Assembly: GCA_014360015.1 (NCBI GenBank)
Contig: JACIYJ010000005.1
Span: 124,001-188,000, forward strand
DNA length: 64,000 bases
Source: Candidatus Aminicenantota bacterium
Lineage (GTDB): Bacteria; Acidobacteriota; Aminicenantia; Aminicenantales; Saccharicenantaceae
Reading direction: 5' to 3'
This document shows, one piece after another, positions 7,662-50,517 of this stretch; positions within the stretch are counted from its first letter, which is position 1, and every line of letters starts with the position of its first letter. Both the position numbers and the translations under genes were made by a program. The notes under the pieces are model-generated. The model worked only from the letters and a program-made list of their open reading frames with translations. It ran no database searches and was not told the origin of the DNA.

Positions 7662-7689
7662 TTGCAAAACTGCGGTTTTGTGATAAAAT
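7662..7689 (+). promoter_or_regulatory. Weak candidate promoter of the EIIA-zinc-ribbon gene
   Basis: TTGCAA, 16 bases, TAAAAT, ending 17 bases before the ATG at 7707. The region also contains a six-pair hairpin (CAAAAC/GTTTTG, 7665-7680), so a terminator function for the upstream gene is possible instead. Confidence 0.3.
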
Positions 7690-7706: not shown

Positions 7707-8660
7707 ATGAATTTAAGAGAAACCTCTTTCGGAGAATTTCTTAAACCCTCTCAGATAATCTTTGAACTTAAGAGCAAAGACAAGTTAGAAGCCATCGAAG
7801 AGCTCCTCGACAGCCTGGTTAAACAGAAACTCATCACCAATAAAAACTTAACGCTGACTCGAATCATCGACCGCGAGAATCTGGAATCGACTGCTCTTGG
7901 ACATGGTATTGCTGTGCCTCACGCTCGAGTTGATACTGAGGGACAGATTGCCGTGGCGGTCGGGAGGTCGGCTGAGGGCATTGACTTTGAGGCCCCTGAC
8001 CAGAAGCCTGTTTACCTTATCATTCTTGTCATCTGGAATCCATCCATTCCCGGTTTATTCAACCATCTTTTCGCCGGCTTAGCCCGGTTTTTGATAAGGC
8101 CGGAAAATCGGGACCGATTATTCAACGCCCGGGATAAAAACGAGCTTTATAGTGTCCTTTCTGAAATTCAGTTTTCCTTCCCGAGAGAAGATAAGATTAT
8201 CAACCGGGCCAGTCTCCTGAAGAAACTTCAGGATATTGAAATCAGGAAGCGCAAAGCACCAAAAGAAATGCAGAAAGAACTCCAGAAGCAGAGCGATTTG
8301 ATCAGGGAAGAGCTGGATGCCTCGCTGCTGGCGCGTTTTGATCTGCTCATGGACCGTTATGGTTATGCGGTGGCGGAAGTGATTGATGGAGTGTGCCAGA
8401 GCTGTAATCTCAATATCTCTACCCAGATGGCTTCAGCCATCGAAGGCAGCAATGACATCTATGTCTGCGAAAATTGCGGAAAATACCTGATTTCGCCGAG
8501 AAAGAAAGAAAAGCCAGCTAAGGAAAAAGAAGAAAAAGAAAAGAAGGAAGAAAAAGGGAAGGCGGGGAAGGAAAGGATTGAAAAGTCCGAGACAGAAAAG
8601 ATAGCAGCAAAAGCCGAAAAAGCCAAAAAGGCCAAGGCTTCTACTAAGAAGAAAAAGTAA
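7707..8660 (+). CDS. PTS EIIA (PtsN-type) domain fused to a C4 zinc ribbon and a Lys/Glu-rich tail
   Basis: Residues 5-155 are a fructose/nitrogen-type EIIA domain; the phosphorylatable histidine is His72 in GIAVPHARVD, matching the E. coli PtsN site. Residues about 165-265 form a helical hairpin followed by a zinc ribbon with Cys230, Cys233, Cys254 and Cys257 (CQSC, CENC), similar to the C-terminal part of the C4-type zinc ribbon (DUF164) proteins. The last 50 residues are almost only Lys, Glu and Ala. PtsN-type EIIA proteins are regulators rather than sugar transporters, and the zinc ribbon plus basic tail suggests nucleic-acid or protein binding. No other PTS genes are in view. The fusion is unusual; the tail is low complexity but in frame. 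Confidence 0.88.
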   Translation: MNLRETSFGEFLKPSQIIFELKSKDKLEAIEELLDSLVKQKLITNKNLTLTRIIDRENLESTALGHGIAVPHARVDTEGQIAVAVGRSAEGIDFEAPDQKPVYLIILVIWNPSIPGLFNHLFAGLARFLIRPENRDRLFNARDKNELYSVLSEIQFSFPREDKIINRASLLKKLQDIEIRKRKAPKEMQKELQKQSDLIREELDASLLARFDLLMDRYGYAVAEVIDGVCQSCNLNISTQMASAIEGSNDIYVCENCGKYLISPRKKEKPAKEKEEKEKKEEKGKAGKERIEKSETEKIAAKAEKAKKAKASTKKKK

Positions 8661-8978: not shown

Positions 8979-10742
8979 TTACTTAATTCTGGTAGCTGAC
9001 AAGCTGACAGGCTGAATAAGGCGATAAACCGGAAGCTCTGAAAAGCCGCGCTGCCACTGGCCGACCAGGTAGGAATCAAAAAAGTTCCAGACAACCAATC
9101 CGTCATCGCTTTCAGGCTCAAGAAGATAAGCCGCCAAGTAGCCTAAGGGTTGAGCAGTTCTGACGAGCAGGGAGCCGGCCGGAAATTTTCTGGTTTCTTT
9201 ACGGTATTCACCTTTAATCTGGTTGAGATGGTGTCCCTGATAAGCTCTTTCGCCGGATTTAAATTCTTTAGGAGTGAATATTTCAACTTCTAAGCTAACC
9301 TCCTCAGTGAGCGCTTCCACCAGAAGACCATGGGTTATGAGCTTGTTGAGGATCTCCGGGTCGGGAACCGGGATCAGATAAGCATATGGAAAATTTACTG
9401 TTCTTTTAGGGACATAACTGGCGAAATAGGGGACGGTGACCGGTTTTTTCCGGTCAGTGGGCTTGAGCTGGGGAAAGCCACTTCCTGGCCTTTCAGTCAC
9501 CTCCAGTTCGTAAGCGTTTATGGTAATGGGTTTGGGAAGGGGCTGAAGTTCAAATTCTACGGCAAAGGTTTTACCCTGGGGATTTAAGCCCTGACGAATA
9601 GTCCTGCGATCGCTGTCTTCAACCAGTTTCTGGATTTCATCCGCTTTGAGGGAGGCATAATCCAGAATGGCTTTCAGGAAATTGAAGCAGCTCAACACTC
9701 GCGTTTTGTAATCAGCATGGACATAGTTTTCATCAAGGATAGAAATTCGGTTGCGCAAGCCAACATAATTGGTAAAATACCGGGGAAGCTGTTCAAAGGT
9801 TTCCCAGCCCTTGGCCGGGTCTCGCCAGTCACGAAACAGACCATAGGGGACAGCTAAGGTGTTGTATTTCTCTTTTAGAGTTTTGACAATGGCTGGAAGC
9901 ATTGTCTCGCGCTGGTAAAGTAACAGCTCAGAGTCAGCGTTAGGATTAAGTGGCCAGGAGTAGGTCACCGTTTCTTCATGATAGGCACCATCGGTGGTGT
10001 GGCAATCGACAACCACTGCCGGATCCCAGCGATTGAGGATGTTTTTCACCACAGCCCGCATTTCTTGGCTTTCCAGCTTGATCAGGTCACGGTTAAGGTC
10101 AAGATTCTGGGCGTTATAGCGAACTCCAACTCCTTTCTCCGGTCCAGGTTGCTGGGGCCTGTTTTGGGGATTGATTTTATCATTGCCATCAGCATTAAGG
10201 TTGGGAACAATGAGGATGACCAACTTATTTAAGTAAGGATGGTTGGGATGGAGCAAGATTTCCCGGGCCAACATCAGGGAGGCTTCCTTGCCTTCAACTT
10301 CACCGGCATGAATGTTGGCCTGGATATAAACCACGGTTTTCTTCAAGTTGCGAGCGGCTATTGGAGTATAAACAGGCGGGTTACTGATGATAAGCATGGG
10401 AATGGAACGACCTTCAATCGTGGTGCCGATATTTTCCACAATGAGATTCGGACTGAGTTTCTGCAGCTTGTGAATGAAGTTAAGAACGTCAGAATGAAGT
10501 GAAGTGGCAGTGAAATTGCTGATTTCAGCTACGGTCAGAGGACCAGCAGCTGGAAAAGTTGCCGGCGGTTGTTGGGCCTGTGTCTGGGCCTGGCTCTGAC
10601 TCGAGGTGCTGGAGCTCCGCCGAGCTTGAGCCCGGGTCTCCGGGTATCCGAAAACTCCATTTCCTGAAAGGATAATGGTTAGCAGGATAATCAGGCTTAG
10701 AAAGATTTTTACCTTCAAAATCTTTTCTTTTGGTTTGCTCAT
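8979..10742 (-). CDS. Secreted M14-family zinc carboxypeptidase
   Basis: 587 residues with an N-terminal signal peptide (hydrophobic residues 11-31) and then a Ser/Gln/Ala-rich linker to about residue 62. The M14 zinc site is present: His145 and Glu148 in NIHAGEVEG, and the third ligand His in VVDCHTTDG near residue 247. LNRDL supplies the usual substrate Asn-Arg pair, and ISILDENYVHADY follows where the catalytic region is expected. Family members remove C-terminal residues or act on cell-wall peptides outside the cytoplasm. The start has AGAGGAT nine bases upstream. The gene stands alone and is one of several exported peptidases in the window. Confidence 0.92.
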   Translation of the reverse strand: MSKPKEKILKVKIFLSLIILLTIILSGNGVFGYPETRAQARRSSSTSSQSQAQTQAQQPPATFPAAGPLTVAEISNFTATSLHSDVLNFIHKLQKLSPNLIVENIGTTIEGRSIPMLIISNPPVYTPIAARNLKKTVVYIQANIHAGEVEGKEASLMLAREILLHPNHPYLNKLVILIVPNLNADGNDKINPQNRPQQPGPEKGVGVRYNAQNLDLNRDLIKLESQEMRAVVKNILNRWDPAVVVDCHTTDGAYHEETVTYSWPLNPNADSELLLYQRETMLPAIVKTLKEKYNTLAVPYGLFRDWRDPAKGWETFEQLPRYFTNYVGLRNRISILDENYVHADYKTRVLSCFNFLKAILDYASLKADEIQKLVEDSDRRTIRQGLNPQGKTFAVEFELQPLPKPITINAYELEVTERPGSGFPQLKPTDRKKPVTVPYFASYVPKRTVNFPYAYLIPVPDPEILNKLITHGLLVEALTEEVSLEVEIFTPKEFKSGERAYQGHHLNQIKGEYRKETRKFPAGSLLVRTAQPLGYLAAYLLEPESDDGLVVWNFFDSYLVGQWQRGFSELPVYRLIQPVSLSATRIK

Positions 10743-11115: not shown

Positions 11116-11541
11116 ATGGGATTGTTTCCGGTAAAGCCTGAGAAAGAGAAAGATTTGCTGGAGCGAATGGCTAAGCTCGGGATAAAGGACTCGGATCTCG
11201 AAGAAAAGTTCATTCGCTCTCAGGGTAAAGGCGGGCAGAAGGTAAATAAATCGGCCACCTGCGTTTATCTCAAACACCTTCCCACTGGTATAGAAGTTAA
11301 ATGCCAGCGGGAGAGGTCACAGGCCATAAACCGCTTTTTAGCCAGACGAATTCTGGTGGAAAAACTCGAGCAAATGATTCTGGGCAAGGAAAGTGAAGAA
11401 CAGCAAAGAATTGAAAAAATCCGCCGACAGAAAAGAAGACGCTCCAGGCGGGCTAAGGAAAAAATGCTCAAAGAAAAGAAGCTTCAGTCAGCCAAGAAAC
11501 AGGCTCGCTGCTTCCAGCCTGACTGGCTTGATTTTGATTAG
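11116..11541 (+). CDS. Release-factor-like peptidyl-tRNA hydrolase (RF-1 domain only)
   Basis: 141 residues containing only the catalytic domain of class I release factors: the GGQ motif is at residues 39-41 in RSQGKGGQKVNKS, followed by the family's CVYLKHLPTGIEVKCQ and RSQAINR segments. It lacks the codon-recognition domain. The C-terminal 40 residues are strongly basic (RRQKRRRSRRAKEK), like the tail that ArfB (YaeJ) puts into an empty mRNA channel. It probably frees stalled ribosomes by hydrolysing peptidyl-tRNA. The start has GAGAGGTAAAA upstream. Confidence in the domain is high; assignment to ArfB rather than another rescue subfamily is inference. Confidence 0.9.
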   Translation: MGLFPVKPEKEKDLLERMAKLGIKDSDLEEKFIRSQGKGGQKVNKSATCVYLKHLPTGIEVKCQRERSQAINRFLARRILVEKLEQMILGKESEEQQRIEKIRRQKRRRSRRAKEKMLKEKKLQSAKKQARCFQPDWLDFD

Positions 11542-39395: not shown

Positions 39396-39634
39396 TTCTG
39401 CTCCTCTAAAATTAATATTTGCCTTCCCACCAATATAATGCTTGTTCAGGCATAAAAATTCAATTTCTGGTTTTTTGATTTTTACTTTTTTGTTGGCTGG
39501 ATTTTCCATTTCTCTTCTTTTGAGTTAAGGCACTGTTTCCGATCGGTTGTTTGATAATTTTTTGGGAAGAAAAAAATTTTTTCCCCGTCAAAAATTTAAA
39601 ATTAATGATGAGCTTTATAAAGGAAGGAGGCGTT

Positions 39635-40783
39635 ATGAAAAAAGGGTTCAGCGGTCCGTTAATCATGGTATTTTTACTCTTGATCGCTGGTATGACCGGC
39701 CTTCTGGCTCAAAGCAAAATTCCTGCTGATATTTTTAAGGGAATTAAGGCCAGAAGCATTGGTCCAGCCAACATGAGCGGCAGAATTGGGGCAATTGAAG
39801 CGGTGTCTTTAGACCCGAGAATCATCTATGTCGGAGGAGCAGCTGGCGGAGTCTGGAAGTCTGTTGACGGCGGCCTGACCTGGAAACCGATTTTTGATGA
39901 TCAGCCCGTTGCTTCTATCGGCGCCATCGCAGTTTACCAGAAAAACCCGAACATCATCTGGGTTGGCACCGGTGAAGCCGCGCCGCGAAATTCAGTCAGC
40001 GTCGGCCGTGGTGTTTATCGTTCACTCGATGGTGGTAAAACCTGGCAGTTTATGGGGCTGGAGAAAACAGAGAGAATCTCTGAAATTATCATTCATCCAG
40101 ATAATCCTGATGTAGTCCTGGTTGGAGCTCTTGGGGCTACCTGGGGTGATAGCCAGGAAAGGGGTGTCTATAAAACTATTGATGGCGGCAGGACCTGGAA
40201 AAAAGTGCTTTATGTGAATGAAAAGACAGGCGTGGCTGATATGGCCGTTGACCCATCTGACCCCAACCATATTATTGTTGCCATGTGGGAATATCGCCGC
40301 TATCCCTGGTTTTTTGTTTCAGGGGGCCCGGGCAGCGGGATTTATGTCACCCGTGACGGCGGTGAGACCTGGGCTAAGCTGACTGAGAAAAATGGGTTAC
40401 CTTCAGGCGAGCTCGGACGCTGCGGAATTGCCTTTGCCACCAACAAACCTGAAATTGTTTATGCTCTGATCGAAGCTAAGAAAAATGGCTTTTATCGTTC
40501 AACCGATGGTGGAGAAACCTGGACCTTAGTCAACAGCGAAGCTGATATTCACAACCGCCCGTTTTATTACAGCCGGGTTTTTGTCAATCCGGTCAATGAA
40601 AACATTGTCTATCTTTGCCAGACACAGCTCCGGGTCAGTGAAGATGGTGGAAAAACTTTTCGGCCGCTGACTGCCTTCAATCAGGCCCATTCTGATTTTC
40701 ATGCGATGTGGATCAGTCCGGATGGCGAGACTCTGATCGTCGGAAATGATGGCGGTGTGGTCATCAGCCACAATCGCGGTTAG
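39635..40783 (+). CDS. BNR/VPS10-type repeat protein, N-terminal part, ending at an in-frame amber codon
   Basis: Start ATG 39635 follows GGAAGGAGG. Signal peptide (LIMVFLLLIAGMTGLLAQS) then a beta-propeller of BNR/Asp-box repeats: DGGLTW, DGGKTW, DGGRTW, DGGETW (twice) and DGGKTF, as in sortilin-like and glycosyl-hydrolase BNR proteins. The frame stops at TAG (40781-40783) in the middle of another repeat (HNRG-stop-TW). The next codon continues the same frame as the downstream part with no start signal between, so this is half of one gene. Exported; likely binds peptides or glycans. Whether it is a true pseudogene, a sequence error or read-through is undecided. Confidence 0.85.
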   Translation: MKKGFSGPLIMVFLLLIAGMTGLLAQSKIPADIFKGIKARSIGPANMSGRIGAIEAVSLDPRIIYVGGAAGGVWKSVDGGLTWKPIFDDQPVASIGAIAVYQKNPNIIWVGTGEAAPRNSVSVGRGVYRSLDGGKTWQFMGLEKTERISEIIIHPDNPDVVLVGALGATWGDSQERGVYKTIDGGRTWKKVLYVNEKTGVADMAVDPSDPNHIIVAMWEYRRYPWFFVSGGPGSGIYVTRDGGETWAKLTEKNGLPSGELGRCGIAFATNKPEIVYALIEAKKNGFYRSTDGGETWTLVNSEADIHNRPFYYSRVFVNPVNENIVYLCQTQLRVSEDGGKTFRPLTAFNQAHSDFHAMWISPDGETLIVGNDGGVVISHNRG

Positions 40784-42913
40784 ACCTGGCGATTTGTGGA
40801 GAATCTGCCACTCGGTCAGTTCTACCATATCAACTATGATCTGCAGATTCCCTACAACGTCTATGGCGGCCTTCAGGATAATGGGACCTGGGTCGGCCCG
40901 GCTTATGTCCTTACTGAAGGAGCTATATATCAATATCACTGGAAAAATGTCGGCGGTGGCGATGGCTTTGATGCGGCTCCGGACCCCGAGAAACCTGGTT
41001 GCGGTTACGGCATGTCTCAGGGTGGTAATCTTTATTATTTTGATATAAATACTGGAACGACCCGGGCGGCAGTACCAACCGAATCCGAAGTTAAACATCG
41101 CTTTAACTGGAATGCTGGCTTTGCCGTTGACCCGTTTCACCCGTCGACCATCTATCTGGGCAGCCAGTTCGTTCACAGGAGTCGTGATAAAGGCAGGACC
41201 TGGGAAATAATTTCGCCCGACCTTACCACCAACGACCCAGAGAAACAGAGACAGAGCGAAAGCGGGGGGTTGACCCTTGATGTCAGTAACGCTGAAAATT
41301 ATTGCACCATTCTCAGTATCGCTCCCAGTCCGGTAAAAGAAGGAGTGATCTGGGTTGGCACCGACGATGGTAATGTCCAACTGACCCGGGATGGCGGCAA
41401 AACCTGGGAGTTAGTGTCCAGAGCATTGACCACAGGGAAAAAGCCCCTGGTTCCTGCGGGCGCGGCTGTGCCTCATATCAAGCCTTCTCATTTTGATGAA
41501 GCCACAGCCTATGTGATCTTTGACGACCATATGCGGTCAAACTTTACTCCATACCTTTTTGTCACCCATGATTATGGCAAAACCTGGAAAAGTCTGGTTA
41601 CTCCGGAAATTGAGGGTTATTGTCGGGCCATTGAAGAAGACCCGGTCAAGAAGGACCTTCTTTTCTTAGGAACCGAGTTTGGACTCTATGTCAGCCTGAA
41701 CGGCGGCCAGAACTGGTTTAAATGGACAAACGGTTTCCCCACCTGCCCGGTCTACGACATAGCTGTTCATCCGCGAGAAAACGATCTGGTGGTGGCTACT
41801 CATGGTCGGTCAATTTATATTATAGATGACATCTCGCCACTTCGGGAACTCACAGATGAAATTCTGAAGAAAAAACTGCATCTGTTCAAAGTCAACGATG
41901 CTTTTCAATTTATCACTGGTAGGATGAGTTCTTACATGAGCCCGGGTGACGGGGTGTTTGTCGGTGAGAATAAACCATTCGGGGCCTGCATCACTTATTA
42001 CCTGATTCCGTCAGAAAAGAAAGGGGAAGAAACACCGGCTTCAGAAATGCCTCAGCTGCAGGAAAGGATGGCTCAATTTGCCCGGAGAAGCGGTATGGAT
42101 ATTTCTGCTATGAGGCAGATGATAATGGGTAGAGGTCGGGTCTCCATCACCATTCTTGACAGTCAGGGCAGAGTGGTCAGGCAGATGAACGGTCCTGAAG
42201 AAAAAGGAATAAACCGGGTTTATTGGGACTTCCGGGAAGTTGAGCCCACTCCCAACTCTGATGAACCGGGTGGAGCCCAGATTAGACAACAGACAGCGCC
42301 CCTGGGCTTCTTTGGCAGGCGTGGTGGGATAACCGTTCTTCCCGGAACTTACACGGTAAAAATCAAATACGAAGACCAAGAAGTTAGTCAGAGTTTTGAA
42401 GTCAAACCTGACCCAAGGTTGAAAATTGACCTGGAAGTGCTGAAGACCAATTACGAGAGAGCTAAGGAAGCCCAGAGACTGTTGCGGATTGTCCAGATGG
42501 CCAGCCAGAGGTTGCAGCAGACAGAAAGAGCTTTGCAAACAATAAGAGAGTTTGCTCGCAGCCAGCGCAACCAGAAACTTATGGAGTCAATGAAAAATGT
42601 CTCAGAAGTGGAAAAGAAACTTAAAGAGCTAACTGAAACACTGAACCCGACTCCGCCCCGACAGGGTATGGCTGATAGGTCTTCCGGGTTGATGTTCCAG
42701 GTGATGAGTGCTGTTTCAGGTGTCAGCGGTGCCGGTTATGAGCCGATTACCCAGCCGGCCAAGGTCAAATATGACCGGGTTAAAGTTAAGCTTAGCGAAT
42801 TTTTGAACAGAGTGAATGATTTCTACCAGAAAGATGTGGCTGAACTCAATAAAACTTTGCAGCAAGTCGGTTTTACTCTGTTGCCGGGATATCCTCCTTT
42901 GAAGATTGAGTAA
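40784..42913 (+). CDS. BNR/VPS10-type repeat protein, C-terminal part after the amber codon
   Basis: About 709 codons in the same frame as the upstream half; a GTG at 40796 is the first possible start but has no ribosome binding site. It contains the rest of the propeller (DNGTWVGP, SRDKGRTWEIISPDLTTNDP, RDGGKTWELV, HDYGKTWKSL, LNGGQNWFKW, VATHGRSIYIIDDISPL) and a C-terminal FlgD-like Ig segment (VSITILDSQGRVVRQMNG...INRVYWDFRE) then a helical region ending at LLPGYPPLKIE. This is the standard layout of exported sortilin-like glycosyl-hydrolase-fold proteins. Without read-through it would not be exported because it lacks a signal peptide. Confidence 0.82.
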   Translation, partial: TWRFVENLPLGQFYHINYDLQIPYNVYGGLQDNGTWVGPAYVLTEGAIYQYHWKNVGGGDGFDAAPDPEKPGCGYGMSQGGNLYYFDINTGTTRAAVPTESEVKHRFNWNAGFAVDPFHPSTIYLGSQFVHRSRDKGRTWEIISPDLTTNDPEKQRQSESGGLTLDVSNAENYCTILSIAPSPVKEGVIWVGTDDGNVQLTRDGGKTWELVSRALTTGKKPLVPAGAAVPHIKPSHFDEATAYVIFDDHMRSNFTPYLFVTHDYGKTWKSLVTPEIEGYCRAIEEDPVKKDLLFLGTEFGLYVSLNGGQNWFKWTNGFPTCPVYDIAVHPRENDLVVATHGRSIYIIDDISPLRELTDEILKKKLHLFKVNDAFQFITGRMSSYMSPGDGVFVGENKPFGACITYYLIPSEKKGEETPASEMPQLQERMAQFARRSGMDISAMRQMIMGRGRVSITILDSQGRVVRQMNGPEEKGINRVYWDFREVEPTPNSDEPGGAQIRQQTAPLGFFGRRGGITVLPGTYTVKIKYEDQEVSQSFEVKPDPRLKIDLEVLKTNYERAKEAQRLLRIVQMASQRLQQTERALQTIREFARSQRNQKLMESMKNVSEVEKKLKELTETLNPTPPRQGMADRSSGLMFQVMSAVSGVSGAGYEPITQPAKVKYDRVKVKLSEFLNRVNDFYQKDVAELNKTLQQVGFTLLPGYPPLKIE

Positions 42914-44547: not shown

Positions 44548-45840
44548 TCAGGCCGCCCGGCCCAATGCTCTCAGTGATTCAGCTACCCGTCCCACGGCTA
44601 AAACATAGGCCGCTTCTCTCATCGGGAGCTGATGTTTTTCCATCAAAGCCACTATTTCATGAAAAGCTTTCTTCATCTTTTTCTCGAGTTTCTCAGTTAC
44701 TTCTTCCTCGCTGAAGAAGTATCTTTGCAAGTCCTGGACCCACTCAAGATAAGAAACTGTTACTCCTCCGGCGTTAGCCAGAATGTCGGGACAGACCAGC
44801 ACTCCTTTCTCCACTAAGATCTCATCAGCTTCAGTGGTGGTAGGTCCGTTTGCTCCTTCCAGAATGATCTTAGCTTTAACCTGTCCAGCGTTGTTTTTAT
44901 GAATCTGACCTTCAGTGGCTGCCGGGATCAAAATATCGCATTCCAGGGCGATAAGACTATCGTTGTCAATGGGCTCAGTTTCAGGGAAGTTGACCACCGA
45001 GCCGGTTTGCTTCACCTGTTTTTCCAGCTCGAAGGGATCGATTCCCTTATCACTGTAAATGCCACCAAAAATATCAGTTATGGCGATTATCTTACACCCA
45101 GCCTGGTGGACGAGCTTAGCGATGGATGAGCCTACATTGCCAAAACCCAGAATGGCTACCTTCTTTCCTTCCAAGCTCATTCCTAAGTATTTAGCAGCTT
45201 CTTCCAGGACAAAGAATAGACCCGTTCCTGTGGCCATGGCTCTTCCCTGAGAGCCCCAGAGATGGACTGGTTTGCCGGTGACCACTGCGGGCTCTAAATG
45301 GCCACAGGCCTGGCTGTAAGCATCAGCAATCCAGGCCATGGTCTGGGCATTGGTGAACATATCCGGTGCCGGGACATCCTTGAAAGGACCGATAATGTCC
45401 CTGATGGCCAGAGTGTATTCTTTGGTCAGCTTGCGTAGCTCGTTTTCTGACATCTTAAGAGGATCGCAGATGACCGCACCTTTGCCGCCACCGAACGGCA
45501 GGTCGACAACGGCGCATTTCCAGGTCATCCAGGTGGCTAAGGCTTTGCATTCACTGAGCGTAGCGTTGGGGCTGAACCTGATCCCACCTTTGGCCGGTCC
45601 ACGGACTGTCGAATGCTGAACTCTAAAACCCGTGAATATTTCAGCCCGACCATCATCCATAGTGATCGGGAAGTGAACGATTAATTCTCTTTCCGGATGT
45701 TTCAGCCGCTGGTAAATCCATGGTTCCAAGTCGAGAAAATTAGCAGCTTTTTCGAACTGCAGAGTGGCTTCAAAAAAGGGGTCGTATTCTTTGGTTTCAG
45801 GTATTGGATGAATGTAATGGACTTTGGCTTTTTCCGGCAT
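44548..45840 (-). CDS. gdhA: Glutamate dehydrogenase (Glu/Leu/Phe/Val dehydrogenase family)
   Basis: 430 residues, the size of hexameric bacterial enzymes. Substrate-binding RVQHSTVRGPAKGGIRFSP, catalytic Lys in VDLPFGGGKGAVICDP, catalytic Asp in DVPAPDMFTNAQTM, glycine-rich dinucleotide site VAILGFGNVGSSIAKL. The acidic residue at the end of the second strand of the Rossmann fold (IIAITDIFGG) favours NAD. It interconverts glutamate with 2-oxoglutarate and ammonia, most likely in the degradative direction in a peptide-fermenting cell. AAGGAG precedes the ATG. Transcribed with an 81-residue gene 12 bases upstream under a sigma-54-type promoter. Confidence 0.96.
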   Translation of the reverse strand: MPEKAKVHYIHPIPETKEYDPFFEATLQFEKAANFLDLEPWIYQRLKHPERELIVHFPITMDDGRAEIFTGFRVQHSTVRGPAKGGIRFSPNATLSECKALATWMTWKCAVVDLPFGGGKGAVICDPLKMSENELRKLTKEYTLAIRDIIGPFKDVPAPDMFTNAQTMAWIADAYSQACGHLEPAVVTGKPVHLWGSQGRAMATGTGLFFVLEEAAKYLGMSLEGKKVAILGFGNVGSSIAKLVHQAGCKIIAITDIFGGIYSDKGIDPFELEKQVKQTGSVVNFPETEPIDNDSLIALECDILIPAATEGQIHKNNAGQVKAKIILEGANGPTTTEADEILVEKGVLVCPDILANAGGVTVSYLEWVQDLQRYFFSEEEVTEKLEKKMKKAFHEIVALMEKHQLPMREAAYVLAVGRVAESLRALGRAA

Positions 45841-45852
45841 GGCTTCTCCTTT

Positions 45853-46098
45853 TTATGAAATTGCTTTGACCAAAAGCCTTAAGAGTTTTTCATAACCAGC
45901 TTTTTCAAACTGACTGATGGGAATTTTTTTATCCCGGTAATAAAGATAATGCGCGGTAATTTTTACTTTTTTATTCCTGGGCTGAGCCGCCTTTTTTGAA
46001 ATCCGGTGTATATCGGGGAATTTTATTATCTTGGCCTTTTCTTCGAATTGTTTTTCTTTTTCTGGGACTGTTTTTTTAAGGAAGATTACGTTTTTCAT
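45853..46098 (-). CDS. 81-residue basic protein of unknown function preceding gdhA
   Basis: Starts at ATG 46098 with AAGG eight bases upstream and ends 12 bases before gdhA. The sequence is rich in Lys (about one in four residues) with a KIIKFPDIHRISKK segment and a C-terminal amphipathic helix (QFEKAGYEKLLRLLVKAIS). No family recognised, no membrane helix, no cysteine. Its position as first gene after a sigma-54-type promoter suggests a role tied to glutamate dehydrogenase, for example binding or regulating it; that is inference. Confidence 0.62.
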   Translation of the reverse strand: MKNVIFLKKTVPEKEKQFEEKAKIIKFPDIHRISKKAAQPRNKKVKITAHYLYYRDKKIPISQFEKAGYEKLLRLLVKAIS

Positions 46099-46120
46099 TC
46101 TTTTACCTTCGATTTTTTTG

Positions 46121-46137
46121 TTGCAATTATTATGCCA
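46121..46137 (-). promoter_or_regulatory. Sigma-54 (RpoN) promoter for the 81-residue gene and gdhA
   Basis: Minus strand TGGCATAATAATTGCAA: GG (46136-46135), ten bases, GC (46124-46123), matching the -24/-12 consensus TGGCAyr-N4-TTGCa at every fixed position. The transcript would begin near 46111-46112, about 13 bases before the ATG. Confidence 0.8.
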
Positions 46138-46184
46138 GAGCTAAGTTGTTGATTATAAATAAAAAATATTTCGAAAGAAGTGTG

Positions 46185-46220
46185 ACTATTGCAACTTGCA
46201 ATAGTGCAAATTGCAATAGT
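46185..46220 (-). promoter_or_regulatory. Candidate enhancer site for the sigma-54 activator
   Basis: A perfect inverted repeat, ACTATTGCAA (46185-46194) and TTGCAATAGT (46196-46205) around one C, followed by a third copy of TTGCAATAGT at 46211-46220. The centre is about 83 bases upstream of the predicted start of transcription, the usual distance for an NtrC-type activator; it reaches the stop codon of the activator gene itself. Confidence 0.7.
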
Positions 46221-47590
46221 CAATCTTTCCAGGATTTCATTTTGCGGAAAAGAGAGGAGGGATGAATGCCAAGAATCTTAGCGGCCTGACTCTTATTGTG
46301 GCCTGTAAGTTCCAGGACTTTTTTAATATAGCATTTTTCCAGATGATATAAAGTTGGTAACTCTCTACCTCTGGCTATTTGCTCCAAGATTTTATTTTCC
46401 GGAAGTTCTATTTCCTGCCTGATTTCTTGCGGTAAGAACTGGAGCTGGATTTCTTCAGCCTGATAAAGGGACATAACCCGCTCTATTGTGTTTCTTAATT
46501 CCCGGACATTGCCCGGCCAGGAATAGTTCATCATGGCCTGAGCGGCGGCCGGCTCTATTCCTTTAAAATTTCTCTTTATTTCTCTGTTAAGCTCATCCAT
46601 AAAGGATAAAGCCAGAGGGATAATGTCTTCTTTTCTTTCGCGTAATGGCGGTATGTGAATTGGTACCACGTTCAAGCGGTAGAAAAGGTCAGAGCGAAAA
46701 TTTCCTTTTTCAGTTTCTTTAGTCAGGTCCCGGTTGGTGGCGGCGATAATCCTGACATTAATCTTAATCGGTTGAGAACCACCCAGCCTGAAAAAAGTCC
46801 CATCTTCAATTACCCGCAGGATTTTGGCTTGAAGGGCTAAGGACATATCTCCGATTTCGTCAAAGAAAACTGTTCCTTCATCGGCTTTTTCCAGAAGCCC
46901 GGTTTTTCTCTTTCGGGCATCGGTAAAAGCTCCGGCTTCGTAACCGAAAAGTTCACTTTCCAGCAGGGTTTCCGGGATGGCCGCGCAGTTAATAGCCACT
47001 ATCGGTTTTTCAGCCCTCGGACTGTGATAGTGGATGGCTCGGGCCAAAAGCTCTTTTCCGGTTCCGCTTTCGCCCTGAAGAAGAACCGTAGTCCTGTCAG
47101 ATTGAGCCACCCGAGCCGCGATATCCACCACCTGTTTCATTTTTTTGCTTTGAGCTACGATTTTTCCGAAGTAATAACGCTGCTTTTCTTTTTCAAGTTC
47201 TTCCAGAACTCTCAATCGCAAAGATAACGTTTCTAAAGCCCGCTGGACAGTGGTCTTGAGTTCGCTGAGCTTAAAAGGTTTCAGCAGATAATCATAAGCG
47301 CCCAGCTTCATAGCTTCCACAGCTTTTTCCAGGATTTCGTAAGCTGACATCATGATGACGATGATTTCCCGGTCTGTCTCTTTGATTTTCTTCAGAACTT
47401 CCAGGCCAGAAATTCCAGGAAGCACCAGGTCGAGAAGGATGAGGTGGGGGCGGAATTTCTCCAGAAGCTCTAAAGCTCTTTCACCAGAATCAGCCAGCAA
47501 GATTTCATAGCCTTCTTTTTCCAGGGCTTTTTTTAAATTATTAAGGGTCAGGATTTCATCATCCACGACCATTATCGAGAAGGTGCTCAT
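46220..47590 (-). CDS. Sigma-54-dependent response regulator (NtrC family)
   Basis: 456 residues. Receiver domain 1-120 with phospho-acceptor Asp54 (LILLDLVLPG) and Lys in LLKPFKL; AAA+ sigma-54 domain about 140-375 with Walker A GESGTGKELLARAIH, the sigma-54 loop ELFGYEAGAFTDA (GAFTGA with Gly to Asp, a variant seen in other members), Walker B VFFDEIGDM and RRR-type fingers; C-terminal Fis helix-turn-helix (SQAAKILGIHPSSLFRKMK). When phosphorylated it should form a ring and open sigma-54 promoters. Its gene overlaps the kinase gene by four bases. The inverted repeat at its 3' end and the -24/-12 promoter beyond it make gdhA the prime target. Confidence 0.96.
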   Translation of the reverse strand: MSTFSIMVVDDEILTLNNLKKALEKEGYEILLADSGERALELLEKFRPHLILLDLVLPGISGLEVLKKIKETDREIIVIMMSAYEILEKAVEAMKLGAYDYLLKPFKLSELKTTVQRALETLSLRLRVLEELEKEKQRYYFGKIVAQSKKMKQVVDIAARVAQSDRTTVLLQGESGTGKELLARAIHYHSPRAEKPIVAINCAAIPETLLESELFGYEAGAFTDARKRKTGLLEKADEGTVFFDEIGDMSLALQAKILRVIEDGTFFRLGGSQPIKINVRIIAATNRDLTKETEKGNFRSDLFYRLNVVPIHIPPLRERKEDIIPLALSFMDELNREIKRNFKGIEPAAAQAMMNYSWPGNVRELRNTIERVMSLYQAEEIQLQFLPQEIRQEIELPENKILEQIARGRELPTLYHLEKCYIKKVLELTGHNKSQAAKILGIHPSSLFRKMKSWKD

Positions 47591-49716
47591 GTGATAACCT
47601 CCTCTTTTTTTCCCTGGAGTCTTCCTTTCTGTCTTGTCGGCAGAATGATGGTAAAAGTCGTCCCTTTCCCTGGTTGACTTTTGACCTGGATATCTCCGTT
47701 ATGACTTTTAATGTAAGACAAACTTATGCTTAAACCAAGACCAGTGCCCTGGCTTTTTTTGGTAGTGAAAAACGGGTCGAAAATTTTCTTCAGATTTTCA
47801 GGTGGGATACCTACTCCTGTGTCAGAGATATCAATCTGGATGAAATCTTCAAACTTAATTTTTGATGTTTCAACACTGAGTCGGCCGCCGTCAGGCATGG
47901 CCTGAGCTGCATTGATCAGGATGTTGGTCAGGACCTGTCTGATCTGGTTCAGGTCAGCGGTGATCGGTGGAAGCTGCGGATAAAATTTTTGTTCTATTTT
48001 TACTTTTTTGAAGAGGGGCTGATGGCTGAGAAAAGACAGTGTATCTTCAATGAGCTGGTTGATGTTAACCTTAGTAAACTGGGGTGGGGCCGGCCGGGCA
48101 AAATTGAGTAGACCACGAATGGTCTGAGAAATTCTGTAAACATTGTCCAGAACAACCTCGATTTGCTGTTTTTTCTGAGGGTCCGGTGTTTCTTCAAGAA
48201 GGATTTCCAGGAAAGAAGAAATACCCAGCAGAGGATTGTTGATTTCATGGGCCGCGCCGAGAGCTAACTGACTTAAAGCCGAAAGCTTTTCATACTCAGC
48301 CAGTTTAGCCCGCAGCTTTTCTTTTTCGGTCACATTCTCCACGAGTATGGTTATGCCCAGGAGGCGGTTGTCACCATTGAGAATTGGGAAAAGGGACAGG
48401 TTGAAATATTCTTCTCCATGGCCCCGGTCGAGTTTTCTGGCCAAAAGCTGCCGGGCAACTGATTCTCTGACAACGCGATAGAAGGCTTCTTCGATTTCTT
48501 TATCTTTGAGTACCGGAGCAATTTCAAAGATAGAGGCTCCCCTCTGAATTTCTTCCAGTTCAAAGATAGTCTTAAAATGTTTGTTGAAATGAGTGATCCG
48601 GCCTTCGAGGTCAGTTCCCACCAATCCTAAGGAAATACTGTCTATAAGATGCATGATGTATTGTTCAGACAGCTGGAGTTCTCGGGCCAGACGGTCACTC
48701 TCGATGATTTTATTTTCTAACTCTTTGTTGATCAGATCGAGCTGCCGACGTCTTTCCCGGCATTCATCCAGAGCTCTGGCCAGGTTGGAGGTCAGCTTCT
48801 GAAGGAGAGAAGTTACTCTTCTTGAATAGAGATTGGAAATAATTACCAGAAAAAGGAATGAAGGTATAAAGAAATACAGGATTATCCGGTTAAACCGATG
48901 AACCGGAAGCAGAGCCTCCTTGAGGTCCATTTCCGAAGCTAAATAGATGTTGGTTCCGGGAAGGCGCTGATAAGCACAGAGGACTTCCTGACCGCGATAA
49001 TCGATATGAGTAATTACCCCATTTTCTCCTTTATGCGGGTTGATTTCTCCGGCAAAAGCTTTTTCGGCAAAAGGGAAAGCGCCCAGTTTGGTCGGAGAGA
49101 GAATCAAGCCTTCTGAGCTCAGCAAGAATAATTCGCTGGTTTTACCCACCCTTAGGTCTGAAAGCAAGCCATATAAATAATTCAGGTTAAGAGAGGCGCC
49201 CAGGACTCCGATTATTTTTCCCTGAACGTTCAAGATCGGCTGGGAAATGATCATCACGTTGGTGCCGGTTATATCAGAGAAGAAAATATCAGAAATGAAA
49301 GCCTGGCCCCTCACTGAAACCCGGAAATAATTCCGGTCAGAAATGTTGCCCTGAAGTACCCGGTTATAAGACTGAATTATCTGGCCATCAAGGTCGGCAA
49401 TGAAAATGAAATCGTACCATTTTTTTTCTTGAATGAGACTGAGGAAAAGTTTTTCTTTATCACCCAGGCATTTGAGGTCAGGGCAATCTAACCTGGCAAC
49501 TGAACCGAGGTCGATCAATCGGTCCTGAAGGAAAAGCTGGATAGTTTTGATATTCTCCTGAACAGCTCCGGCCAGCTGCTGATTAATCTGATTTTTGATG
49601 AGTCGGGAAATTTCCAGGTCCACGACCACCAGCAGAAGGATAAAAGGCAGAGCAAAAAAAACTAAGGTCAGAAGGGTATTCCTGGTGGTCAGTTTTTTAA
49701 AATATTTTGAAGCCAA
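47587..49716 (-). CDS. Sensor histidine kinase with extracytoplasmic Cache domain and PAS
   Basis: 709 residues, TTG start with AGGAG nine bases upstream. Membrane helix (about 15-35), extracytoplasmic dCache-type domain (about 40-270; [52 protein letters not shown]), second helix (about 278-300), short coiled coil, PAS domain (about 350-460), HisKA with phospho-His in [13 protein letters not shown], and HATPase_c ([45 protein letters not shown]). Cache domains bind small ligands such as amino acids, carboxylates or amines outside the cell. Coupled (ATGA overlap) to the sigma-54 activator, so it likely reports an external nutrient to gdhA. Confidence 0.95.
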
Positions 49717-49782
49717 ATATGAATAACTCCTGTTTATATAATTTTAACAAAAAAAATTTATCCTTTCATAAACTTTGATCTT

Positions 49783-50517
49783 TCAGAAATCTATATAACT
49801 CAGGGTTCGTGGTTTTTCTTCAAGATGAAAAATAATTATGGCCTGGAAAACTTTCCCCAGATTTTTCCAGTCTTCAGGTTTCAGGTTAAAGCCGGGTGGC
49901 TCAGTTGGTGGATTCTTCTTCATCCAGTCTATGGCGGTCTGCATCAATGGGCTGATTTCGATCTTTTTCTCGCTGGCACAGCTCTGGCAAAGCACCCCTT
50001 CTTTCTGCGGATCGAGCCAGCTGGCGGTTTTAACAATCTTACGGCATTTCTGGCAGGTCTTGAAGTCAGGCAAGATTCCATTAATCTTTAAAAACCAGAG
50101 TTCAAAGTATCTGGTGACATATTCAATGGCGCGGCCTGTTTTCGCCGCTTTCAAGATAATCCAGAGAAGGCGATAAAGGAGTTCTTCTTTAGCCCGGTAA
50201 GGGGAAAATTTTTCGGTGAGCTCGGCGATGTAAGAGAAAGCATAGGAGATCTTAAGGTCCTGTAAAAGTTCAAAGGCAGATTCTATCAGGTCGCAATTGC
50301 TGATGGTTACAAAATCGTGTTTCTCTTTTTCATAGTAAAAGATTTTGACCGCAGAGAACGGCTCCAAGCTGCTGCCGAACCGATTGTTGAACTTTCGGGC
50401 TCCTTTAGCTATCCCTCTGACCAGCCCTTTTTCCCGGCTAAAAAAAACTACCAATTTATCCTGCTCAGCAAAATTCTGAGTTCTGAGGATGATGGCTTCA
50501 GACTGGTCTATTGGCAT
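49783..50517 (-). CDS. recO: DNA repair protein RecO
   Basis: 244 residues. N-terminal OB fold (EAIILRTQNFAEQDKLVVFFSREKGLVRGIAKGAR) followed by an all-helical C-terminal domain with a zinc site (FKTCQKCRK...LCQSCASEK). RecO binds SSB and loads RecA with RecR on gapped DNA; recR is not in the window. The ribosome binding site is weak. It follows the RodZ-like gene by 53 bases in the same direction. Confidence 0.94.
   Translation of the reverse strand: MPIDQSEAIILRTQNFAEQDKLVVFFSREKGLVRGIAKGARKFNNRFGSSLEPFSAVKIFYYEKEKHDFVTISNCDLIESAFELLQDLKISYAFSYIAELTEKFSPYRAKEELLYRLLWIILKAAKTGRAIEYVTRYFELWFLKINGILPDFKTCQKCRKIVKTASWLDPQKEGVLCQSCASEKKIEISPLMQTAIDWMKKNPPTEPPGFNLKPEDWKNLGKVFQAIIIFHLEEKPRTLSYIDF

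Follow-up and report, generated by a model that had tools for sequence, protein, structure and literature searches.

What does a cell gain by joining a phosphorylatable phosphotransferase (PTS) domain to a zinc ribbon? The question is raised by a gene at 7707-8660 of the 64,000-nucleotide stretch of an Aminicenantota genome analysed here (the window). As the original prediction described, and as matches to both Pfam families confirm, this open reading frame (ORF) joins an EIIA domain with an intact phospho-histidine to a DUF164-type helical hairpin and a four-cysteine (C4) ribbon. We examined the origin of the two halves, the distribution and neighbourhood of the fusion, and the functions that could explain it.

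Domain architecture and origin of the two halves

The window protein matches PF00359 (PTS_EIIA_2) over residues 10-153 (E 6e-27, 94.7 bits, cut-off 27). Its match to Zn_ribbon_9/DUF164 (PF02591) at residues 229-261 scores 28.1 bits in the protein scan (E 2e-6, cut-off 29.1) and 32.8, above the cut-off, in the genome-level scan. Fusion homologues in the scan of order genomes also exceed the PF02591 cut-off, and each of the 55 homologues scanned has a match to both families. For the whole chain, EIIA(Ntr) proteins are the nearest solved structures by sequence and by fold. The AlphaFold model, of modest quality (pLDDT 78.7, pTM 0.53), gives no confident domain arrangement; it places two helices ahead of the ribbon (Table 1), and the C-terminal part modelled alone has the same helices and ribbon. 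The tail contains 22 Lys, 2 Arg, 12 Glu and 8 Ala in 54 residues. Sigma-70-like promoter patterns, one of which lies just 5' of the gene, were found three times against 1.7 expected, no excess over chance.

Table 1 Coordinates of the fusion gene, its predicted functional elements and its downstream neighbours in the window
Feature	Position	Strand	Remark
Sigma-70-like promoter pattern, TTGCAA-16-TAAAAT	7662..7689	+	Just 5' of the fusion gene; pattern match only
Fusion gene	7707..8660	+	ATG to TAA, 317 aa, single intact ORF; homologues found
PTS EIIA type-2 domain, residues 10-153	7734..8165	+	PF00359; PtsN structures best in PDB
Arg56, EIIA active-site motif residue	7872..7874	+	Invariant, n = 55 homologues
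His72, predicted phosphorylation site, PHAR motif	7920..7922	+	Invariant, n = 55; aligns with PtsN active-site His
Family-specific motif WNPxxPGLFNHLFAG, residues 110-124	8034..8078	+	Absent from other EIIAs compared
Short Lys-rich helical hairpin, residues 167-218	8205..8360	+	AlphaFold helices 167-183 and 186-218
DUF164-type C4 zinc ribbon, residues 219-263, acidic	8361..8495	+	Best-conserved segment of the protein
Cys230, predicted zinc ligand 1	8394..8396	+	Invariant in homologues
Cys233, predicted zinc ligand 2	8403..8405	+	Invariant in homologues
Cys254, predicted zinc ligand 3	8466..8468	+	Invariant in homologues
Cys257, predicted zinc ligand 4	8475..8477	+	Invariant in homologues
Lys/Glu/Ala low-complexity tail, residues 264-317, net +12	8496..8657	+	Saccharicenans-type genomes
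M14 peptidase gene, between fusion and RF-1-domain genes	8979-10742	-	
Stand-alone RF-1-domain gene (release-factor-like, GGQ, basic C-terminus)	11116..11541	+	Conserved downstream neighbour; next to the fusion and co-directional in several families

The phosphorylation motif of the EIIA domain (RE-x-L-x-S/T-T plus PH) is intact. An auxiliary active-site histidine at the beginning of the next helix matters in EIIAs; the fusion carries Phe118 in this column, with an invariant His120 two residues on. In the order's canonical PtsNs this column holds Asn or Ser, so that they lack the histidine as well. Like EIIA(Ntr)/PtsN (TIGR01419; 1a6j, 4gqx, 3urr, 2a0j), the fusion has the EIIA type-2 fold with a phosphorylatable histidine in the same motif, and a regulatory-type context in which no EIIB or EIIC was seen nearby. 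Unlike PtsN, it has an EIIA clade of its own, the unique WNPxxPGLFNH motif and an added C-terminal hairpin and ribbon. Because it scores 61.4 bits against the PtsN equivalog TIGR01419, below the cut-off of 138.7, and because a canonical ptsN lies elsewhere in the genome, the fusion is not PtsN itself. In a small unrooted EIIA tree the fusion EIIAs form a separate clade with full support, and a recent duplication of the genome's own ptsN is accordingly unsupported. The nearest stand-alone EIIAs outside the order (L071/G102 and L028) have no zinc-ribbon or RF-1 partner beside them.

The genome encodes both kinds of module elsewhere. The ptsN place in an rpoN-hpf-ptsN-hprK-rapZ-EIIA(Man)-HPr-EI cluster (G000:C25; hpf, hprK, rapZ and EIIA(Man) named from their sequences) is taken by a separate 154-aa PtsN and not by the fusion. 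A fructose-type HPr-EI-EIIA protein is encoded at G000:C4; its EIIA is likewise fused to further domains, but the partners are PTS enzymes, whereas in the window protein the partner is a non-PTS zinc ribbon. A further EIIA protein of 269 aa (G000:C12, about 164,950-165,760; L037 6951-7760), whose C-terminal half carries no assigned domain, overlaps an 891-aa ORF that possibly encodes a transporter. G000:C23 encodes a stand-alone DUF164 protein of 251 aa that has the long coil of CT398 type (PF24481 matched); its gene adjoins others that resemble dnaG and rpoD. As the genome has its own PtsN, other EIIAs and a full-length DUF164 protein, the fusion is an extra, specialised paralogue. Across the order, nearly all genomes carry both DUF164 proteins, that is, the fusion and the stand-alone form. 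HPr is present in 44 and RpoN in all 45 of the 45 good genomes, and the fructose-type EI-HPr-EIIA protein, as counted from second HPr hits, in a minority of order genomes.

The C-terminal half points to a DUF164 ancestor. Its profile matches CT398 (3e-5), HP0958 (2e-3) and MSMEG_4306 (0.085) among PDB entries, in alignments that span the last coil helix and the ribbon. Foldseek with the C-terminal model ranks the same three proteins first, with values below 1e-3 for CT398 and HP0958 only, and the C-terminal part aligns with the genome's own DUF164 protein at 35% identity over 52 residues. The DUF164 signature, Y/F-X18-23-CXXC-X18-26-CXXC (PMC3372290), is matched as F211-X18-C230xxC233-X20-C254xxC257. 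PF24481 (CT398_CC), which describes the long N-terminal coiled-coil hairpin, has no match in the window protein or in the 55 homologues. On the profile and Foldseek matches and the alignment with the genome's own protein, the C-terminal half is a truncated DUF164 from which most of the long coil is gone. The second half of the coil and the C4 ribbon are thus common to the fusion and to HP0958 (FlgZ), CT398, MSMEG_4306 and BB0713, whereas the place of the long N-terminal coil is taken by EIIA.

The ribbon, which is predicted to bind zinc, also departs from canonical DUF164 ribbons in being acidic and in lacking R-x-RPQ. Its net charge is −4.3 ± 1.0 in the fusion (n = 55) versus +0.8 ± 1.3 in canonical ribbons of the order (n = 31), and where canonical ribbons have M-R-[IV]-R-P-Q behind the first CxxC, the fusion has an N-[IM]-x-[VI]-[AS]-T-like sequence. 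In the 12 homologues for which it was computed, the net charge of the hairpin ranges from +2 to +8.

Departures from the plain coil-ribbon form are rare: a 2011 survey of DUF164 counted 3 among 349 proteins, including WS2117 of Wolinella succinogenes, a NIF3-DUF164 fusion (PMC3372290). WS2117 is a precedent for a DUF164 ribbon joined to an unrelated domain; it has another partner domain and was described as a single case, whereas the gene studied here is order-wide. No description of an EIIA-zinc-ribbon fusion was found in the literature searched, a partial sample, within which these two known domains form an undescribed architecture.

Distribution, conservation and neighbourhood

The fusion was found in 85 of the 94 genomes searched of the window's order, an uncultured lineage within the Acidobacteriota, with absence called when there was no match at 1e-40; this includes 44 of 45 good genomes and 34 of 35 genera. 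It is single-copy in each genome, save for assemblies in which one copy is split. Among the nine genomes without a match, the contig stops at the locus in three (G401, G431 and G451). Neither the fusion nor a close RF-1 neighbour was found in the other six (G194, G449, G432, G433, G405 and G454), so that the whole locus is either absent from the assembly or lost. Across about 85,000 species genomes, 23 full-length homologues came up in records under the names Saccharicenans, Aminicenantes, Acidobacteriota or 'uncultured bacterium', with one more under 'Clostridiales'. This last record, L013 (JARYMI010000019.1, 'Clostridiales bacterium'), has the fusion locus; it is probably mistitled and a genome of the window's order. 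Among 396 genomes sampled across the phylum, the full fusion occurred in 27 of 28 genomes of the order and in none outside it, the other matches listed being EIIA-only. Plasmid records likewise gave matches to the EIIA part only, none covering 80% of the query.

Full-length homologues across the order share 57-85% identity, far beyond chance. Among the 55 aligned, R56, H72, C230, C233, C254 and C257 are invariant, as are E57, T62 and P71 of the EIIA motif; loss of the cysteines, for which the homologues were inspected, did not occur. Mean column conservation is highest in the ribbon (84%), followed by EIIA (77%) and the hairpin (73%). In both halves pN is about 0.1 against a saturated pS; these values are quoted because saturation of synonymous sites makes dN/dS unusable. 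Both halves are under strong purifying selection.

These data bear on the possibility that an assembly or start-stop artefact joins two genes, to which we assign practically no probability. Its one support was a split match in a single genome (G447), which on examination proved to be a run of N; two separate genes were found in no relative. The same fusion recurs in 85 separate assemblies, nearly always once, and selection acts on both halves. The conservation of the fusion refutes the two-gene reading: the fusion is real and old. The polybasic tail noted at the outset is a different matter. It is present in the window protein, but long Lys/Glu/Ala tails are restricted to Saccharicenans-type genomes, and elsewhere most homologues end after a few lysines. 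Lys/Ala-rich C-terminal extensions have evolved anew in a handful of further families (L082, L085, L119-L121). The long tail is a genus-level, recurrent low-complexity extension outside the conserved protein.

The order-wide gene order is fusion, M14 peptidase (antisense), RF-1-domain gene, M20 peptidase/amidohydrolase-like gene, pdxJ, glmM, ybbR and cdaA; some neighbours were checked against Pfam and the rest named from their sequences. The RF-1-domain gene lies downstream of the fusion in 35 of 44 loci, a set that includes some contigs fetched twice. It is absent at L082 and L085, and the other seven loci stop at or soon after the fusion. In most loci the antisense peptidase gene separates the two, and in at least seven (L016, L017, L025, L026, L075, L086 and L087) the RF-1-domain gene is directly next and co-directional, at distances of some 25-320 nt. 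A sister family beyond the order lacks the fusion yet has an RF-1 gene of 70% identity, set among other neighbours, so the link between the two genes is suggestive only. The conserved neighbours of the 44 loci contain no gene recognised as EIIB or EIIC, and no conserved operon naming a partner was seen. A sigma-54 promoter search in the window gave 28 hits against 30.5 expected by chance, no excess. Upstream, an M28 peptidase gene is found in the window's family and a divergent PfkB-family sugar kinase gene at L013, L015, L016, L019, L022, L077-L079 and L082-L086, though not at L080 or L081.

Candidate functions of the fusion

Based on these findings, we propose that the fusion is a phosphorylation-gated protein-docking adaptor, a specialised output protein of the PTS, a reading to which we give an about even chance. 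An EI-HPr chain would pass phosphate to His72 of the EIIA domain, whose phosphorylation state would thereby report PEP and carbon/nitrogen status. The phosphodonors, which the original prediction suggested looking for, are present: the genome encodes EI and HPr, and they are the presumed source of the phosphate on His72. The short hairpin and the acidic, DUF164-derived ribbon would form a docking module for a protein partner, and phosphorylation would gate either docking or the activity of the docked complex. Gating of this kind may be envisaged by analogy with E. coli PtsN, which holds YcgO when unphosphorylated and whose hold is weakened by phosphorylation (PMC11808508).

The adaptor reading draws on the near-universal single copy, the invariant Arg56, His72 and cysteines, and the presence of HPr and EI. 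It is also consistent with the ribbon being the best-conserved segment and with the docking of CT398 and HP0958 on proteins; the partners described for DUF164 proteins include RpoN, FliH and CdsL (PMC3372290, PMC5947703). An acidic ribbon without the basic RPQ motif argues for a protein rather than a nucleic-acid partner. The reading is weakened by Phe118 at the auxiliary-histidine position, although the canonical PtsNs of the order also lack that histidine; by the modest AlphaFold model and the lack of a conserved operon that names the partner; and by the Lys-rich hairpin and basic tail, which could still bind nucleic acid.

This last point leads to the proposal made at the outset, that the hairpin, ribbon and tail touch RNA or the ribosome under modulation by phosphate on His72. 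HP0958 binds flaA mRNA (PMC3372290), and BB0713, a coiled-coil/zinc-ribbon protein of Borrelia, has RNA chaperone activity (PMC13285594); with the Lys-rich hairpin, the basic C-termini and the frequent, in places directly adjacent, RF-1-domain gene, these observations give the idea some substance. The charge of the ribbon and the loss of R-x-RPQ speak against it, and nucleic-acid binding by the ribbon in particular finds no footing. The long tail is unconserved, and the sister family has the RF-1 gene without the fusion, while an antisense peptidase gene intervenes in most loci of the order. We consider such a binder rather unlikely, and the ribosome-associated partner retains a weak hint only, from the downstream RF-1-domain gene. 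A related proposal, that phosphorylation of His72 switches a DUF164-derived zinc-ribbon adaptor placed on the machinery of translation or transcription, as it might be with the RF-1-domain protein, seems to us doubtful; if true, PEP status would be coupled to ribosome rescue or gene expression across a whole uncultured order.

The ancestry of the ribbon could also suggest a sigma-54 (RpoN) chaperone or regulator, akin to HP0958 and CT398 and under EIIA control, that couples PTS-Ntr to RpoN. RpoN is a binding partner of both proteins, and HP0958 shields it from turnover (PMC3372290, PMC5947703); RpoN is found in every good genome of the order, and the canonical ptsN sits inside the rpoN cluster. 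According to the passage of PMC5947703 that cites Barta 2015, however, CT398 binds RpoN by its long N-terminal coiled coil only, and it is this coil that is missing from the fusion, cut to a short hairpin that PF24481 does not match, whereas the genome's full-length DUF164 protein has it. The fusion gene is also not close to rpoN, and the window has no excess of sigma-54 promoters. The missing coil and the acidic ribbon together argue against a simple HP0958-like chaperone as well as against nucleic-acid binding by the ribbon, and we regard a role on RpoN as quite unlikely. Even less probable is an ordinary phosphocarrier, in which a PTS EIIB would receive its phosphate from EIIA and the ribbon would serve dimerisation or stability only. 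The active-site motif is intact, the genome has fructose-type PTS genes, and EIIA domains are often fused to other parts; yet the conserved neighbours include no recognised EIIB or EIIC, the fructose PTS already has its own EIIA, and the fusion is near-universal in an order where the fructose-type EI-HPr-EIIA protein is confined to a minority.

That a whole order keeps the fusion, almost universally and in single copy, is strong circumstantial evidence for joint action of the two modules, and the fusion suggests that a carbon/energy signal of the cell may be wired straight to a partner protein. If the adaptor mechanism holds, it would provide a direct link from the regulatory PTS to the poorly understood DUF164 zinc-ribbon family, the two having so far been tied only via separate sigma-54 connections. 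With one histidine and four cysteines, the fusion offers a clean handle on what the DUF164 ribbon binds and on control by phosphorylation.

Additional observations in the window and genome

Next to the fructose PTS genes at G000:C4, a long array occupies about 44,900-50,000 (L036 9921-15001). Its units of ~73-74 nt consist of a shared segment ending GTTTCAGTCCCC plus unique spacers, CRISPR-like in look. In the window, an in-frame TAG at 40781-40783 (...SHNRG*TWRFVENLPLGQFYH...) interrupts a sortilin/YVTN-type repeat protein at 39551-42913 (+), which thus falls into two ORFs. The homologue of this protein in L198 (6878-10063) is a single ORF of 1061 aa, and the split may represent a pseudogene, a sequencing error or readthrough.
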